From: a virus | Direction: 5' to 3' (one strand) | Virus record (IMG/VR): IMGVR_UViG_3300042509_000398 | Span: 1 to 25,475 of that record | DNA length: 25,475 bases | Shown here: piece by piece, positions 2,120-8,264 of the stretch | Layout of the letters: each line of letters begins with the position of its first letter | Numbering within the stretch: position 1 is the stretch's first letter | Program-made: the position numbers and the translations under genes | The notes under the pieces: generated by a model | Seen by the model: only the letters and a program-made list of their open reading frames with translations | Database searches by the model: none | What the model was told of the DNA's origin: nothing

Positions 2120-2244
2120 CTCCATTGCGTGTAGCAGATTGCTACTGCTTGATCGTTGTCAGGGTACTCTCCTGCGATGGCTTGCACACATCGTTGGATG
2201 TAGTCCGACTGCTTCTCTCCTGCGTTAGGTGTTGGAATTGGCAT
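2107..2244 (-). CDS. Small protein with a QAVAICYTQW-type motif, 45 aa
   Basis: The frame is open upstream, but the ATG at 2244-2242 gives a compact 45-aa protein starting MPIPTPNAGEKQSDYIQRC, which overlaps the preceding gene by 20 bases. The pattern 'KQSDYIQRC... EYPDNDQAVAICYTQW' is a short motif I know from free-standing small proteins, and from ends of virion proteins, in many phages. It has two conserved Cys and a terminal Trp. Its role is not known to me. The transcription terminator of the operon is built into its last codons. Confidence 0.68.
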   Translation of the reverse strand: MPIPTPNAGEKQSDYIQRCVQAIAGEYPDNDQAVAICYTQWREGK

Positions 2245-2866
2245 AGTGTAGGTATAAGTTGATTTGATTGAATAGCTGCTCCCTGTCCACGATACCATTC
2301 TTGTCATAGTAGACGTAAACGTAGGGTGCATATTTTTCCTTGTACTGCTCATTCTTGATCCGGTGCTGCTCCTTTGCCCGCTGCTGATAGGGAGTGTTCA
2401 TCATCCGATACGATTCAGGCTTGATCTGAAGGCCAAGCAGAAGCGTTTTGTTGAAGAACATCTCCGCATCGATGCAGTAATTGTGATCGACCTCAAATGT
2501 GGTACGTGCAAAATGCGCATCGGGGAATGCGTAGTTCAGCTCCTCAATGGTCATCAGCTCCTTCGCAAAGCCATTCCACGTCTGACCTATGACACGATGG
2601 AAGATGTACTTCTTGATCGTCAGATCCTCAAGTTCGGGAAGTCGCTTCTTGAGTTCTTGGAATACCACCTTCAAACCATCCCAACCCTGCACCTCTTGGT
2701 AGTACTGTTCCCATCCTTCGGGCGTTGGGTTGGTTGTGGTTTGGTGGTAGTCCGACACCAACCGCACACATTCGCCAACGTATGTCTTGTAAAAAAACGG
2801 ATTGATCTTGGCGTTCTTGTTTAACGCCTTGAAGGTATCGTTGGGAATGTCGATGGTGTAGATCAT
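2225..2866 (-). CDS. MjaI-like PD-(D/E)XK restriction-type endonuclease (tentative)
   Basis: The start at 2866 gives 213 aa and a TGATG junction with the upstream stop; the longer frame adds an unlikely Arg-rich leader. Residues about 80-155 resemble the core of MjaI-family type II restriction enzymes: DLTIKKYIFHRVIGQTWNGF, then EVD (125-127), a conserved ID with D133, and QIKPESY with Q147 and K149. In the MjaI family the equivalent region contains an ESKGID motif and an IKP-x-SY motif. D133 with Q147-I-K149 would form a PD-(D/E)XK-like metal site. No methyltransferase is seen nearby. The assignment rests on remembered family motifs; otherwise it is a hypothetical early protein. Confidence 0.55.
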   Translation of the reverse strand: MIYTIDIPNDTFKALNKNAKINPFFYKTYVGECVRLVSDYHQTTTNPTPEGWEQYYQEVQGWDGLKVVFQELKKRLPELEDLTIKKYIFHRVIGQTWNGFAKELMTIEELNYAFPDAHFARTTFEVDHNYCIDAEMFFNKTLLLGLQIKPESYRMMNTPYQQRAKEQHRIKNEQYKEKYAPYVYVYYDKNGIVDREQLFNQINLYLHYANSNT

Positions 2867-3273
2867 CAATAGGCGTTGTAAACCGTGACGAGTTCCTGAA
2901 GTCGGCCTCGCATACACGAACCGCAGTTGGTTGCCTGCACGTTGTCGTGAAATACTCGGTTGTAGATTTTATTCAATTCAGTCTGCTCAAACGCAGTCAC
3001 GACATTGCGATCCTTCATCGTGCCAATGAATTCGTATTCGGCTTGAGTCAAGCACTCCGGCTTGCGCCAACGCCAAATCTGATTGAGACGCTCCTTGCGA
3101 GCATCACATCCGCAGTCGATACCTGTGGTCTCGCTGAACCAATCAACCGCTGCCTTGATTCCGGTGGCGGTGGTGATCTTCTCTACCGTGTCTCCTAAAC
3201 CGCTACTCTTGCGAGGCTTCCTTCCACGCTTGGTAGGTTCCGCTGCATTCTGATTGGATTCGTTCTCTTGCAT
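2866..3273 (-). CDS. Conserved phage protein with CGCDARKERLN and CGSC motifs
   Basis: A 135-aa protein with a basic, flexible N-terminus (KRGRKPRKSSG) followed by an amphipathic helical segment. It has CGC near residues 54-56 in a CGCDARKERLN motif, a further Cys in PECLT, and CGSC near 117-120. The paired Cys motifs could make a zinc site. I recall this family next to sigma-like factors and replication genes in Bacteroidota phages and prophages, but no function is established to my knowledge. The ATG at 3273 makes it overlap the sigma-like gene by 71 bases in another frame; no later ATG keeps the conserved part. Confidence 0.75.
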   Translation of the reverse strand: MQENESNQNAAEPTKRGRKPRKSSGLGDTVEKITTATGIKAAVDWFSETTGIDCGCDARKERLNQIWRWRKPECLTQAEYEFIGTMKDRNVVTAFEQTELNKIYNRVFHDNVQATNCGSCMRGRLQELVTVYNAY

Positions 3274-3739
3274 TTTTTAAAGTGTTGAAAATTGAACGTG
3301 CTGATATTTTTGTTTTCGATGCGAGTGTGCGCATACTCATATCGGTGTTATGGTACAGGTCAAAGATCTTGCGATCGTACCAATGCCACTCCTCCGTGTT
3401 CTCCCAAATCTCATCGTAGAGTTCGACAATGGCTTCTTCCGCCTGCTGATTGGTATCTTCGAAGATCAGCTCATCTTCAAGTTGGCTTACGTCTACAAAC
3501 TCGATTCGGCTCTTGGCCTTCATCAAAGTGGCGTACATATTCCGGAGCGTAACGTACACGAAAAAGGTGTTCACCTCTTGCTCGTTGTACATTATTTTTT
3601 CGGGTTCTTCTATGTACTTGTAGAGCCGAACGTACATCTCCTGAACGATGTCATTGGCAAGGTCTTGGTCTGCACCAAAACTCTTTACCATCCGAATCCA
3701 ATCGGTGTGTCGTTCAGCGAGTACGTTTAGGAGTTCCAA
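3203..3739 (-). CDS. Phage RNA polymerase sigma-70-family factor (ECF-like)
   Basis: A 178-aa protein with the two-domain layout of an ECF-like sigma factor. Region 2 (about residues 20-70) contains DLANDIVQEMYVRLYKY, the typical D-x-VQE-x-F/Y-x-R/K-L/I-Y pattern. Region 4 (about 120-161) contains DRKIFDLYHNTDMSMRTLA and ISARSIFNTLKNARERI, a plausible helix-turn-helix. The start chosen is TTG at 3739, because the nearest ATG (residue 17) would cut off the first helix. It overlaps the upstream 49-aa gene by 13 bases. Such phage factors redirect host RNA polymerase, often to late genes. A DNA-binding regulator without sigma activity is an alternative. Confidence 0.78.
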   Translation of the reverse strand: MELLNVLAERHTDWIRMVKSFGADQDLANDIVQEMYVRLYKYIEEPEKIMYNEQEVNTFFVYVTLRNMYATLMKAKSRIEFVDVSQLEDELIFEDTNQQAEEAIVELYDEIWENTEEWHWYDRKIFDLYHNTDMSMRTLASKTKISARSIFNTLKNARERIQSECSGTYQAWKEASQE

Positions 3740-3876
3740 GATAGTTCGAGGATAACTATGCCGAGGGCAACCTGTACCTGTTGGATGGTTTCTTCTTCGT
3801 CAAGGTAGTCGGTCTTTGACCAATTCACACCAACAACCAAGCCGTAGATAGGGTAAATGCCAACATTAAAATTCAT
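3727..3876 (-). CDS. Small conserved phage protein, 49 aa
   Basis: The ATG at 3876-3874 opens a 49-residue frame starting MNFNVGIYPIYGLVVGVNWS, followed by an acidic linker and a hydrophobic C-terminal stretch (VALGIVILELSW). I recall this 'GIYPxYGLVVGVN' pattern in small proteins of Bacteroidota phages. The two hydrophobic parts may associate with the membrane or form a small alpha/beta fold. It overlaps the DnaA-like gene by 11 bases upstream and the sigma-like gene by 13 bases downstream, so all three are probably co-translated. Function unknown. Confidence 0.7.
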   Translation of the reverse strand: MNFNVGIYPIYGLVVGVNWSKTDYLDEEETIQQVQVALGIVILELSWNS

Positions 3877-4279
3877 CAAATGTCTTTTTCAGGGTTAAAT
3901 ATAGCTCTTTATATTTAATTAACTCCGTTACAATATCATTAAGCCTTTTGATTTCATCCTCAAGAGACTTAATATCTACCGCATCCAATACCTCAATTGG
4001 GTACTCATCACGGATCTCACAGGCTACTTTGTACGCCCATCGGTAGTCCTTATAATTCAGACGTGACTTGTGTTCCTTTTGGGCGTGGACTACGGATGAA
4101 TGGTCACGGTCAAGGATTGAACCAAGCTCCATCAGCGTTGCCTTGTGTCGGTAGGCATTGATGAATGCGCCTCTTGCGAGTGTGTATTCTCTTTTGCGTG
4201 TGTCCTTGTCATCAAGTCCAAGACGTGCCATCAGAGCGTTCTTTGCTCGCTTCATTTGTTGTAGTTCAAAAGCTCTCAT
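3866..4279 (-). CDS. DnaA domain-IV-like DNA-binding protein
   Basis: A 137-aa protein. Residues about 30-75 resemble the C-terminal DNA-binding domain of DnaA: a helical segment with ARGAFINAYRHKATLMELG, then RDHSSVVHA at 58-66. That closely matches the DnaA signature RDHTTVxHA, whose residues contact the DnaA box. The AAA+ ATPase domain of DnaA is absent. The C-terminal half (about 90-137) is charged and probably a coiled coil, which would allow dimers. It could bind the phage origin, act as a replication initiator or helper, or titrate DnaA boxes. The start overlaps the upstream stop as ATGA. Confidence 0.82.
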   Translation of the reverse strand: MRAFELQQMKRAKNALMARLGLDDKDTRKREYTLARGAFINAYRHKATLMELGSILDRDHSSVVHAQKEHKSRLNYKDYRWAYKVACEIRDEYPIEVLDAVDIKSLEDEIKRLNDIVTELIKYKELYLTLKKTFDEF

Positions 4280-4488
4280 TGCTTGTTGTATGTTTTTTTG
4301 TAGTATGCTTCTGCTTGGTCATTAGTCCATTGAGTATGTGGATATTCATCAAACACTCTTTGTCCCTCAATATGTGCATCTTCAATCTGCTCCTGCTCAA
4401 TTCTTATTGCCTCTTTAATATCAAGTGGTGTGATTGTACCCTGCATATCCCACATATTAACAAGCCATTCTACTGCCGTCTTTTTCAT
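4276..4488 (-). CDS. Hypothetical protein, 70 aa, paralogue-like to the gene at 101-403
   Basis: Two ATGs are available. The one at 4488 makes an ATGA overlap with the previous stop and leaves MKKTAVEWLVNMWDMQG at the N-terminus, like MKQSSIEWI in the gene at 101-403, so it is preferred over the one at 4494. A following helix contains EQEQIEDAHIEGQRVFDEY. This N-terminal pattern recurs in small Bacteroidota phage proteins of unknown role. The start of the DnaA-like gene overlaps its stop. Confidence 0.75.
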   Translation of the reverse strand: MKKTAVEWLVNMWDMQGTITPLDIKEAIRIEQEQIEDAHIEGQRVFDEYPHTQWTNDQAEAYYKKTYNKQ

Positions 4489-4715
4489 TTGCATTTGCAG
4501 AGTGTTGCTCTGCCCTCTTTTTTGGTTTCTATTATTTTGGTGATTGGTACTTCGAAGTGCTTGTGGTCGGATAGCCTCTTGAACTTAAACCAAGAACACC
4601 ACTCCACAAGTTTATCTTGGTAGTCTTGGATGATTTGGTAGTCCAAGCAGATGTAGTCAACGCCATCTACCCTAAAGCATTCATACTGTTGGAATGGAGA
4701 AAATATCTGCTTCAT
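4485..4715 (-). CDS. Hypothetical protein, 76 aa
   Basis: A 76-aa frame held between two ATGA overlaps. It begins MKQIFSPFQQYECFRVDGVD, has many aromatic residues and five Cys, and ends with a basic CKCK tail. There is no membrane segment and no recognised motif. The tight coupling shows it is translated with the operon. Function unknown. Confidence 0.7.
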   Translation of the reverse strand: MKQIFSPFQQYECFRVDGVDYICLDYQIIQDYQDKLVEWCSWFKFKRLSDHKHFEVPITKIIETKKEGRATLCKCK

Positions 4716-5023
4716 AGATTGTCCTCAATTATGCGTTGCAAGCGTTCTATCTCCATCACCATCTCCTCGTTGTTGATTCGGAGTTGAGCGTTGGCAAGCA
4801 TTACCTCGTTCAGCTTGCGGTTGGCAAACAATCGGTAGTCAATAAACTGCTGAAGGAGTTGGTCTGCGTTATGGCAGTTCATCACGTGATCAAGGAGTTC
4901 ATCCTGTATCTCACGCCCTTTGGATTTGTCTGCTGCTTGATGGGCAAGCCAAATTGCCGTGCCGGATAGCATCAATTGCTTCTCCCTGATGTACAGGTCG
5001 TGGAGTTCTTCAGAAGGGTACAT
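4712..5023 (-). CDS. Hypothetical coiled-coil protein, 103 aa
   Basis: A 103-aa, mostly helical protein directly downstream of the ATPase gene, overlapping it by 14 bases. Residues about 72-103 (starting LNEVMLANAQLRINNEEMV) show a leucine/isoleucine heptad pattern and probably form a coiled coil. A His/Cys-containing segment (LLDHVMNCHNADQ) lies in the middle. Its position right after a helicase-like ATPase is compatible with a helper or loader role, but there is no sequence evidence for that. Confidence 0.7.
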   Translation of the reverse strand: MYPSEELHDLYIREKQLMLSGTAIWLAHQAADKSKGREIQDELLDHVMNCHNADQLLQQFIDYRLFANRKLNEVMLANAQLRINNEEMVMEIERLQRIIEDNL

Positions 5024-5954
5024 CGTCAGGATTGATTAGTTCAACGGGTTCATCGCTCTTTTGCGTCAACAAATTACGCCCATTTATCTTAAACCCTACG
5101 TTACCAATCATTGATTGCATAACAAGTGGTGTGTCAAGTGGAGTTACCCTTCCTCCTGTTTCCATCTCCTTGACCTTGCGCACGTGGATGTGGGTGTATA
5201 TCCAATCTTGAGGATCCTGTGAGTACCTGTGAATAATCACTACGGCATCAGCCCTGTTGCCCCACTTGCCGCCACCTTCGATATCCGAGGTCATCGGAGG
5301 CATCGGCATCCCCTCATACGGATGTCCTTTGTAGTGTACCCTGCGCATTGCCTCCGTTACGGGGTGGGTGTTTACGATCGTGGTGACGTTGTTCTTGTGG
5401 GCAAACACCCGAATCGCTGATGCTACCTCGTAGTGGTACTCGTGCATCCCTGTCTTGCCAAGTTTCTTTTGGTCGGTGGTCAGCGAGTTGTATGGGTCAA
5501 TCAAAGCGCCTGTGTAGTCCCATTCGTTCTTGATGGACTCCATCACCTCAATGAGGTCAAAGGCGTTGAATAGCCTGTTGCCGTCAATGAACTGAAAGTA
5601 CTCGTTGATCCAATCGAGCTTCCGGAACATCGTCAGCTCATCAATGCCCTGAATGGGTTTGCACACCATAAACTCAATGAGCTTGCGCTTGAGCGATGCG
5701 ACCTCGTTCTCTGCCGAGTAGATCAACCACTTCTTTCCCTGATTGTACGACTGCAAAAGCATCAGGTACATCAGCGTGTGGGTCTTGCCTACGTTGGCGT
5801 GGCCTGTGACAACAATGAACTCACCATCCTTGAAGCGGATGTACTCATCAAGTTCGTAGACACCGAGCTTGCCTGTGTCAAAGTATTTGCCCTTCAACGC
5901 CCTTTGAAGGTAGGGAAGCGATGCTTCGTTTGGAAGTAAGTCGGGATGTTTCAT
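5010..5954 (-). CDS. RecA-fold ATPase, DnaB-like replicative helicase or RepA-like
   Basis: A 314-aa protein of the RecA/DnaB-like P-loop family. Walker A is GHANVGKT at residues 51-58, Walker B is ALIDPYN near 150-156, and NTHP near 195-198 fits the polar sensor motif of DnaB-like helicases. An SAENE motif follows the second strand. There is no DnaB N-terminal domain, so it resembles short phage or plasmid helicases. The frame is open 24 codons further upstream, but that part crosses a terminator and a promoter. The ATG at 5954 lies 16 bases after the -7 box and is the likely start. The last residues, NPDDVPF, look like the SSB C-terminal tip. It is the first gene of its operon. Confidence 0.85.
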   Translation of the reverse strand: MKHPDLLPNEASLPYLQRALKGKYFDTGKLGVYELDEYIRFKDGEFIVVTGHANVGKTHTLMYLMLLQSYNQGKKWLIYSAENEVASLKRKLIEFMVCKPIQGIDELTMFRKLDWINEYFQFIDGNRLFNAFDLIEVMESIKNEWDYTGALIDPYNSLTTDQKKLGKTGMHEYHYEVASAIRVFAHKNNVTTIVNTHPVTEAMRRVHYKGHPYEGMPMPPMTSDIEGGGKWGNRADAVVIIHRYSQDPQDWIYTHIHVRKVKEMETGGRVTPLDTPLVMQSMIGNVGFKINGRNLLTQKSDEPVELINPDDVPF

Positions 5955-5994: not shown

Positions 5995-6017
5995 AAAAAA
6001 GCCTCCCGAAGGAGGCT
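5995..6017 (-). terminator. Intrinsic terminator after the SSB-like gene
   Basis: On the minus strand AGCCTCC, a TTCG loop and GGAGGCT are followed by a T-tract. The C-UUCG-G closure is a very stable tetraloop. It ends the transcript of the SSB-like gene just before the ATPase promoter. Confidence 0.92.
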
Positions 6018-6042
6018 CTTGCGCAACGTCCGAAGAAACCAA

Positions 6043-7238: not shown

Positions 7239-7497
7239 TGATTCCTTCCGTTGTTGTGCTTGTTGCTCGTTGCTCATCTTGTGCTGATAGGTGTATTTGG
7301 CGTTCTAATTCAAATTCAAGATGGGCAATGGCCTTCTTGATGTCTTGCGTGATGGGGTTGTTAGGCTTCTTGCCCGCCCTCATCAGGTAGGTGAGTGCAG
7401 TCCCGAGGTTGTAGTTGTCCGGTTGGAAGTCCTGCACCACATCCTTCGCCTCTATCTGCTTCAGCTTTCCGATGTAGTAGGTTGGTGTCTTGCTCAT
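7213..7497 (-). CDS. DUF3310 family protein
   Basis: A 94-aa protein whose core, YYIGKLKQIEAKDVVQDF followed by NLGTALTYLMRAGKK and DIKKAIAHLEFELER, matches the DUF3310 family. This family is widespread in phages and sometimes annotated as nucleotide kinase-like, without experimental support that I know of. The ATG at 7497 overlaps the previous stop as ATGA and is preferred to the one at 7512. The last about 25 residues (after ELERQ) are not part of the family core. Confidence 0.8.
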   Translation of the reverse strand: MSKTPTYYIGKLKQIEAKDVVQDFQPDNYNLGTALTYLMRAGKKPNNPITQDIKKAIAHLEFELERQIHLSAQDEQRATSTTTEGINVKYAVLY

Positions 7498-7913
7498 AGT
7501 AATTGCTTGCATTTGAGTTTTGTAGGCACGCTTTCAGAATCGTGGCGAAGAATTTCGTTTGCTGATATTTCGTACAATTCAACGTGGTAACCATCAAAGA
7601 ACTTCTTAATGCGTTCGGTTTTGTGTTGTGGAACCTTGTGCTTATGGTATATTTCAAACAAGTATTTTGGACTACCCTTGTGAAATACCGTGATGTCAGG
7701 GACAAATAACGGGTACCCGCTTTGGTCTTCGTTCTCAAAGTGGAATGGGTCTGAAGTTGAACGGAACATCAGCTCCTCGTGAACTCCATAGCTTGACCTC
7801 CATTCAAATTGAGCAACCTTGCATTGGTCATTTTTTTCGTCCTGCTCTCGAAGCCATTGAGCAAGAAGGCTCTTTGCCAACTTGTGTTTGTAACTCTCCT
7901 TTTGCTTGAACAT
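7494..7913 (-). CDS. CoiA-like or PD-(D/E)XK nuclease candidate
   Basis: A 139-aa protein. VPDI with D73 in VPDITVFHKG is followed by LFEI with E87 and a basic HKHKV stretch. This resembles the catalytic stretch of CoiA-like and other PD-(D/E)XK nucleases, though the usual lysine immediately after E-x is replaced by Tyr-His. An N-terminal helix (KHKLAKSLLAQWLREQ) also fits CoiA-like proteins. It is the first gene of the early module, directly behind a TAnnTTTG box and the large repeat-rich intergenic region. Activity is uncertain because of the altered lysine position. Confidence 0.55.
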   Translation of the reverse strand: MFKQKESYKHKLAKSLLAQWLREQDEKNDQCKVAQFEWRSSYGVHEELMFRSTSDPFHFENEDQSGYPLFVPDITVFHKGSPKYLFEIYHKHKVPQHKTERIKKFFDGYHVELYEISANEILRHDSESVPTKLKCKQLL

Positions 7914-8264
7914 TGTCTGATGGTTTGCTCAAAGGTAAGTCATCCCAATAAATGAAAATGTGGTCGTGCACTATTTAGAATGATTAAAAATTAGCATAAT
8001 CTATGCACAGGTGCTTGCGTATGTCAAGATTATTTAGTTTTTTTTACAAGTTACTTGACTTATATAGTTAAACTATAAGTTTACTAACTTATCAAGTTAG
8101 TCAAGTTATATATTAACTTAACCAACTAACTTGAAAGAAAAAGAAACTAAACAAAGAAAAAGAAGGGAATCTTTGATTTAAGCCACTATTATATGCGTAA
8201 CCATACAACCATACCACTTTTGGTAGAAAGTGTATTAGAACGCATATAAATGCCCTCTACGGGC
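7914..8264. other. AT-rich, repeat-dense intergenic region; candidate origin or control region
   Basis: This is the longest stretch without a gene (351 bases). It contains an 8-bp inverted repeat, ACTTGACT (8053-8060) and AGTCAAGT (8099-8106), around a near-perfect dyad, TATAGTT-A-AACTATA (8063-8077). There is a tandem TCAAGTTA pair (8092-8099 and 8101-8108) and a tandem AACCATAC pair (8199-8206 and 8207-8214). A 9-bp inverted repeat, TATATGCGT (8190-8198) and ACGCATATA (8240-8248), encloses a TACCA/TGGTA hairpin. A GCATA-ATC-TATGC dyad lies at 7994-8006. It separates late from early genes, a usual place for an origin or early control region. Confidence 0.55.
7930..7937 (-). promoter_or_regulatory. 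-7 box of the early-module promoter
   Basis: On the minus strand TACCTTTG matches TAnnTTTG and ends 16 bases before the ATG at 7913, the same distance as at the ATPase gene. The leader contains ACCATCAGA, a one-base-shorter form of the ACCAATCAGA motif. No clear TTG is seen at about 19 bases upstream. Confidence 0.6.

Follow-up and report, generated by a model that had tools for sequence, protein, structure and literature searches.

What does a phage do with the DNA-reading domain of DnaA when it carries this domain apart from the ATPase? The question is raised by a stretch of 25,475 nucleotides of viral DNA (IMG/VR record IMGVR_UViG_3300042509_000398), which we refer to as the window. A gene at 3866-4279 on the minus strand of the window encodes a protein of 137 aa, here called D4, which was characterized by profile searches, structure modeling and comparison with its homologues. 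The initial annotation, made from the sequence alone, had described D4 as a stripped-down DnaA domain IV lacking an ATPase. It had placed the gene in a replication operon, and it had proposed that the protein could start phage replication, recruit the phage helicase, or compete with host DnaA.

The motif that prompted this description, RDHSSVVHA, occupies exactly residues 58-66 of D4, as had been claimed; the strand, which the initial annotation did not give, is minus. In a Pfam search with the single protein, Bac_DnaA_C (PF08299) aligns to residues 26-68 at E=1.6e-4, with a score of 22.1 bits. The curated cut-off of this model is 31.5 bits, which is reached neither by D4 nor by any other member tested (best record 28.7). 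The same model is matched by 22 of the 22 members of the D4 family alignment, with a best value of 7e-7, while every other model matches at most 5 of them. Since all 22 aligned members match Bac_DnaA_C, the match of D4 is not a chance one. A comparison of the D4 profile with a profile of four DnaA domain-IV sequences (hhalign) gave a probability of 95.2% and E=2.6e-8. The NCBIfam DnaA models score 13-14 with D4 against cut-offs of 344-657, and a search of the 137 aa for an AAA+ domain returned no match.

The predicted structure leads to the same domain. With 22 close relatives alone, AlphaFold2 gave a low-quality model (pLDDT 63.5); an alignment of 35 family sequences raised this to pLDDT 89.8, with pTM 0.70. 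The model contains helices at residues 2-19, 30-42, 49-56, 60-68, 77-92 and 103-136. The last two follow the helix-turn-helix (HTH), and the C-terminal one is long and probably exposed, so the early description of a helical segment followed by a probable coiled coil was right. The top PDB match is the DNA-binding domain of M. tuberculosis DnaA (3pvp), with a Foldseek probability of 1.00. E. coli domain IV (1j1v) superposes over 91 columns at rmsd 2.3 A and TM 0.71 (target length), and the HTH of that domain is present in the D4 model. Non-DnaA entries among the top PDB matches have TM values of about 0.2-0.3. The Foldseek E-values of the DnaA matches are weak (0.06-0.5), with no PDB match at E<=0.001, and the case for domain IV therefore rests on profile, fold and residues combined.

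The residues concerned are those by which DnaA contacts DNA. Within the minor groove of the DnaA box, R399 of DnaA reads the TTA half; a helix at 434-451 reads the remainder, and R399A or T435M abolishes binding in E. coli (PMC5742627). In a MAFFT alignment, D4 residues R28, R36, D59, H60 and S61 align with DnaA R399, R407, D433, H434 and T435. They are directly seen to be conserved in the D4 family: R36, D59 and H60 are retained in 74 of 74 sequences, and R28 and S61 in 73 of 74. The assignments of R28 and R36 are less certain, because an HMM alignment places both one position off. P423 of DnaA is not retained in D4. Taken together, the family profile matches, the profile comparison, the predicted model and the PDB matches uphold the original domain assignment, and they confirm D4 as a small phage protein in which a predicted DnaA DNA-reading domain is joined to a phage-specific tail, with no ATPase.

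The replication setting also proved correct. The operon of D4 is headed by a RecA-fold helicase of the DnaB/KaiC type (5010-5954, minus strand), which consists of the ATPase domain only and starts with an ATG at 5954. A terminator-like hairpin (5997-6020, minus strand) lies just upstream of the helicase operon, and a Bacteroidota-type TATATTTG element follows it. On the same strand are a conserved 103-aa gene with no assigned role (4712-5023) and a conserved 76-aa gene (4485-4715), which in most relatives immediately precedes D4. In the window an extra 72-aa ORF (4276-4494, minus strand), missing from most relatives, lies between the 76-aa gene and D4. This ORF is also present in a few relatives, and its composition resembles that of a 100-aa ORF at 101-403. 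A sigma-factor-like protein is encoded downstream of D4 in the same operon (3203-3739, minus strand), and the neighborhood further includes a RusA-like resolvase and an exonuclease VIII-type DUF3799 protein. As a separate observation, the product of the gene at 2225-2917 (minus strand) has a Pfam match, over the cut-off at E=1.7e-6, to the MjaI family of restriction endonucleases; the gene occurs in some relatives only, and no obvious methyltransferase partner was noticed.

Linkage between D4 and the helicase is strict. Of 66 newly fetched helicase loci, 62 lie on a contig long enough to include the D4 position, and all 62 have D4; the contigs of the other four end before it. The gene order is constant: helicase, 103-aa, 76-aa, D4, 49-aa, sigma-like, 135-aa. 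What is new here is this one clade, in which the D4 gene always accompanies the helicase gene.

The clade is known from uncultivated virus contigs only, with 31 close relatives of D4, 66 by alignment search and 172 by a search with the DNA-binding part, of which the best 80 were kept. A relative of D4 was not found in cultured phage records by tblastn, nor were prophages or hosts found in GTDB genomes searched with D4 and the helicase. The related genomes are 28-32 kb long and encode a siphovirus-like portal, a tape-measure protein and lysis genes. Shine-Dalgarno-like sites precede just 3 of 26 genes, and the helicase and RusA genes are preceded by TATATTTG elements, a promoter type of Bacteroidota. 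Because Shine-Dalgarno-like sites are rare and these elements are present, the host of this uncultivated clade is probably a member of the Bacteroidota, as far as sequence features can tell.

The two ends of D4 evolve in very different ways. Over the first ~110 codons, nucleotide identity between alleles is 45-68%, compared with 70-98% for most flanking stretches, and in the last ~55 nt it is back up to 86-95%. In alignments, residue counts and a divergence scan, codons 1-100 (3980-4279, minus strand), which form the DNA-binding part with the DnaA-IV fold, vary between alleles. Codons 119-137 (3869-3925, minus strand; ELIKYKELYLTLKKTFDEF) form the nearly invariant end of the C-terminal helix, a candidate protein-interaction tail. 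Among 24 representatives, codons 1-100 have an amino-acid identity of 0.53 and codons 119-137 one of 0.93; the helicase reaches 0.84 and the 103-aa protein 0.76. Synonymous matches are somewhat raised in the tail (0.71 versus 0.57-0.61), which is partly expected because the tail overlaps the next gene. With the N-terminal part diverged and the tail constant, the simplest reading is a specificity part on a fixed tail, and the alignments suggest that the DNA-binding part is an exchangeable or fast-diverging specificity module. Searches of the PDB and of phage records returned no significant match to the tail, and any partner named for it is therefore a guess. The 49-aa and sigma-like genes also occur as distinct alleles, and the idea that D4 is the sole swapped gene was weakened by their exchange. 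The sigma-like gene itself has two main alleles at the same position in close phages (~33% versus 87% identity).

If D4 binds DNA, its target might be expected among DnaA boxes. In the window, an exact TTATNCACA occurs once, at 5228, within the helicase gene. A search of 7914-8264 for DnaA-box-like 9-mers, a region that the initial annotation had singled out, yielded a single near-box, CTATGCACA at 8001. Across 102 related phages, the leader regions contain no exact TTATNCACA (2.1 expected) and 29 one-mismatch sites, fewer than the 53.7 expected from shuffles, and seven near-complete genomes have 0-2 exact boxes each. An apparent depletion of boxes against shuffles was gone with permuted-box controls in the seven genomes (fraction 0.10 for one-mismatch and 0.42 for exact boxes). 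In the D4 phages, canonical DnaA boxes show neither clustering nor clear avoidance, and the notion that D4 reads them is not supported, as they are not enriched in the window, the 102 leaders or the seven genomes.

Within the AT-rich leader of the early region (7972-8264, minus strand), AAGTTA/AACTTA words form a dense array, and a promoter-like TTGACA lies at 8027-7998. The array is present in most relatives as hypervariable, inverted short words, and these words are densest at the leader in most genomes checked, with G001 as an exception. In about 100 related phages, conserved CTTTTTCTTT tracts flank it. Array distance and D4 distance show a weak partial correlation of 0.34, and phages with identical D4 can have very different arrays, which differ by ~0.7 in 6-mer content. 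A conserved single-strand fold of the array was considered and rejected: the copy in the window folds with a z of -4.6, but folds differ across 78 unique arrays and a control segment is equally stable. The leader is a candidate origin or control region. Two ORFs on the minus strand adjoin this region. The small ORF at 7828-7971, just upstream of the early genes, begins with [VM][NH]DH[IV]FIYWDDLPL and is conserved at the protein level across relatives. The other, of 139 aa (7494-7913), has a PD-(D/E)xK-like stretch (PDITVF...FEIYHKHK) and separates the early leader from the gene that follows; it is also present in L063 and L069/L095 and is absent from most relatives.

What, then, is the role of D4? 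That it is a phage origin binder recruiting the phage helicase is, in our judgment, an evenly balanced proposition. The N-terminal ~90 residues, with the DnaA-IV fold, would bind a specific phage site. The invariant C-terminal helix would bring in a partner, either the phage helicase or some other conserved replication protein encoded in the operon. D4 would thus recognize the origin while lacking ATPase activity itself, and it would work in the manner of lambda O, with an exchangeable DNA-binding part and a conserved partner-binding part. The reading draws support from the DnaA-IV homology, the retained contact residues, the helicase linkage, the allele divergence of the DNA-binding part, the constant tail and precedents in flavophages. 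Counting against it are the lack of concentrated DnaA boxes, an array with no clear correspondence to the D4 allele, the allele exchange of the sigma-like and 49-aa genes, and a tail with no database match. The strict linkage and the invariant tail fit helicase recruitment without proving it, and recruitment is plausible as a putative function deduced from gene order and alignments. A wider proposal, which we hold only tentatively and consider doubtful, is that the whole clade initiates replication with a DnaA-IV reader of exchangeable, non-DnaA-box specificity and a fixed helicase-loading tail, and with no AAA+ protein of the DnaA or DnaC type. The initiation site of such a system would possibly be the hypervariable array of inverted words that precedes the early genes.

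Transcription offers another role. DnaA itself also acts as a transcription regulator, and D4 may regulate early or middle genes through its DnaA-IV HTH, with the tail contacting RNA polymerase or the sigma-like factor. The sigma-like gene shares the D4 operon, two genes downstream, and the conserved AT-rich leader with its TTGACA site and repeat array resembles a control region. A tail specialized for the sigma-like factor fits poorly, because the sigma-like alleles differ while the tail is constant. In addition, the cultured flavophage counterparts adjoin primosome genes. On balance we regard a regulatory role as unlikely, though a reasonable second choice.

More improbable is the suggestion that D4 sits on host DnaA boxes and thereby blocks or redirects the initiation of host replication. 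Because the base-contact residues of DnaA are retained, D4 could recognize a DnaA-like box, and the phage genomes themselves have few boxes. This scarcity is not significant in the permuted-box control, and no positive evidence was found for the competition with host DnaA that had been raised earlier. The DNA-binding part also diverges strongly between close phages, which is unexpected if all D4 alleles read one conserved host box.

The weakest alternative, that D4 is a generic HTH protein unrelated to DnaA-IV with a DnaA-like motif by chance, is very improbable and already largely refuted: every member tested falls below the Pfam cut-off and the PDB matches miss E<=0.001, but Bac_DnaA_C is the sole model that all members match, the profile comparison and the best PDB match both lead to DnaA, the non-DnaA entries among the top matches have low TM values, and the named structure matches in a viral library, with the exception of one 'helix-turn-helix protein', are DnaA C-terminal proteins of phages.

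The 'helix-turn-helix protein' is from Flavobacterium phage tooticki6-1; the other named matches are mostly labelled 'Chromosomal replication initiator, DnaA C-terminal' and include one from Nonlabens phage P12024L. They show that the rarity implied at the outset was wrong, since stand-alone DnaA-IV is a common phage protein type. When viral contigs were searched for DnaA-IV, 60 of the best 80 matches lay in ORFs of 100-280 aa, and only 12 of the 80 had a Walker A-like motif anywhere. D4 is a divergent branch of this known type and is ordinary as a sequence finding. The other phage-contig proteins resemble it in having the domain alone, with the same fold and mostly no Walker A motif. Most of them are close to cellular domain IV, with the canonical RDHTTV and often an N-terminal extension, in contrast to the D4 clade, in which the motif reads RDHS, the first HTH helix is shorter and the C-terminal tail is invariant.

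The flavophage set comprises Polaribacter phage P12002L gp46 and Freya_1 gp53, Tenacibaculum phage Gundel_1 gp036 and Leeuwenhoekiella phage Arctus_1. The Polaribacter and Tenacibaculum proteins (141-159 aa) are labelled as replication initiation proteins and lie beside primosomal or DnaC-like loader genes, and the Leeuwenhoekiella protein, annotated as hypothetical, adjoins a 'DNA replication protein' gene. Like D4, the flavophage proteins have DnaA-IV without AAA+, a C-terminal helical extension and a location in the replication region. They differ in having full-threshold Pfam matches and another C-terminal extension without the KKTFDEF tail, and their identity to D4 is 17-22%. Bacterial DnaA shares with D4 the domain IV fold and the contact residues (T435 is S in D4). 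D4 has no domains I-III and no ATPase, its identity to DnaA is ~16%, and it has extra helices after the HTH.

A change of specificity in such a domain has a precedent. REP-type transposases (TnpA-REP-like HUH) with an added Bac_DnaA_C act on repeats unlike DnaA boxes (PMC6006769). There, DnaA-IV is an accessory DNA-binding module fused to a nuclease, whereas D4 stands alone. In the literature searched, with incomplete coverage, we found no experiments on any phage DnaA-IV protein that stands alone; a measured DNA target for one of these common proteins would therefore be informative. Initiators of the lambda O type have a variable origin-binding part, a constant partner-binding part and an adjoining gene for the replication partner. 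D4 would resemble them in logic only, as the folds are unrelated. If the initiator reading is true, this clade would show how the reader domain of DnaA can be detached from the ATPase and put to new use in phage replication, as a part that sets specificity and can be exchanged.
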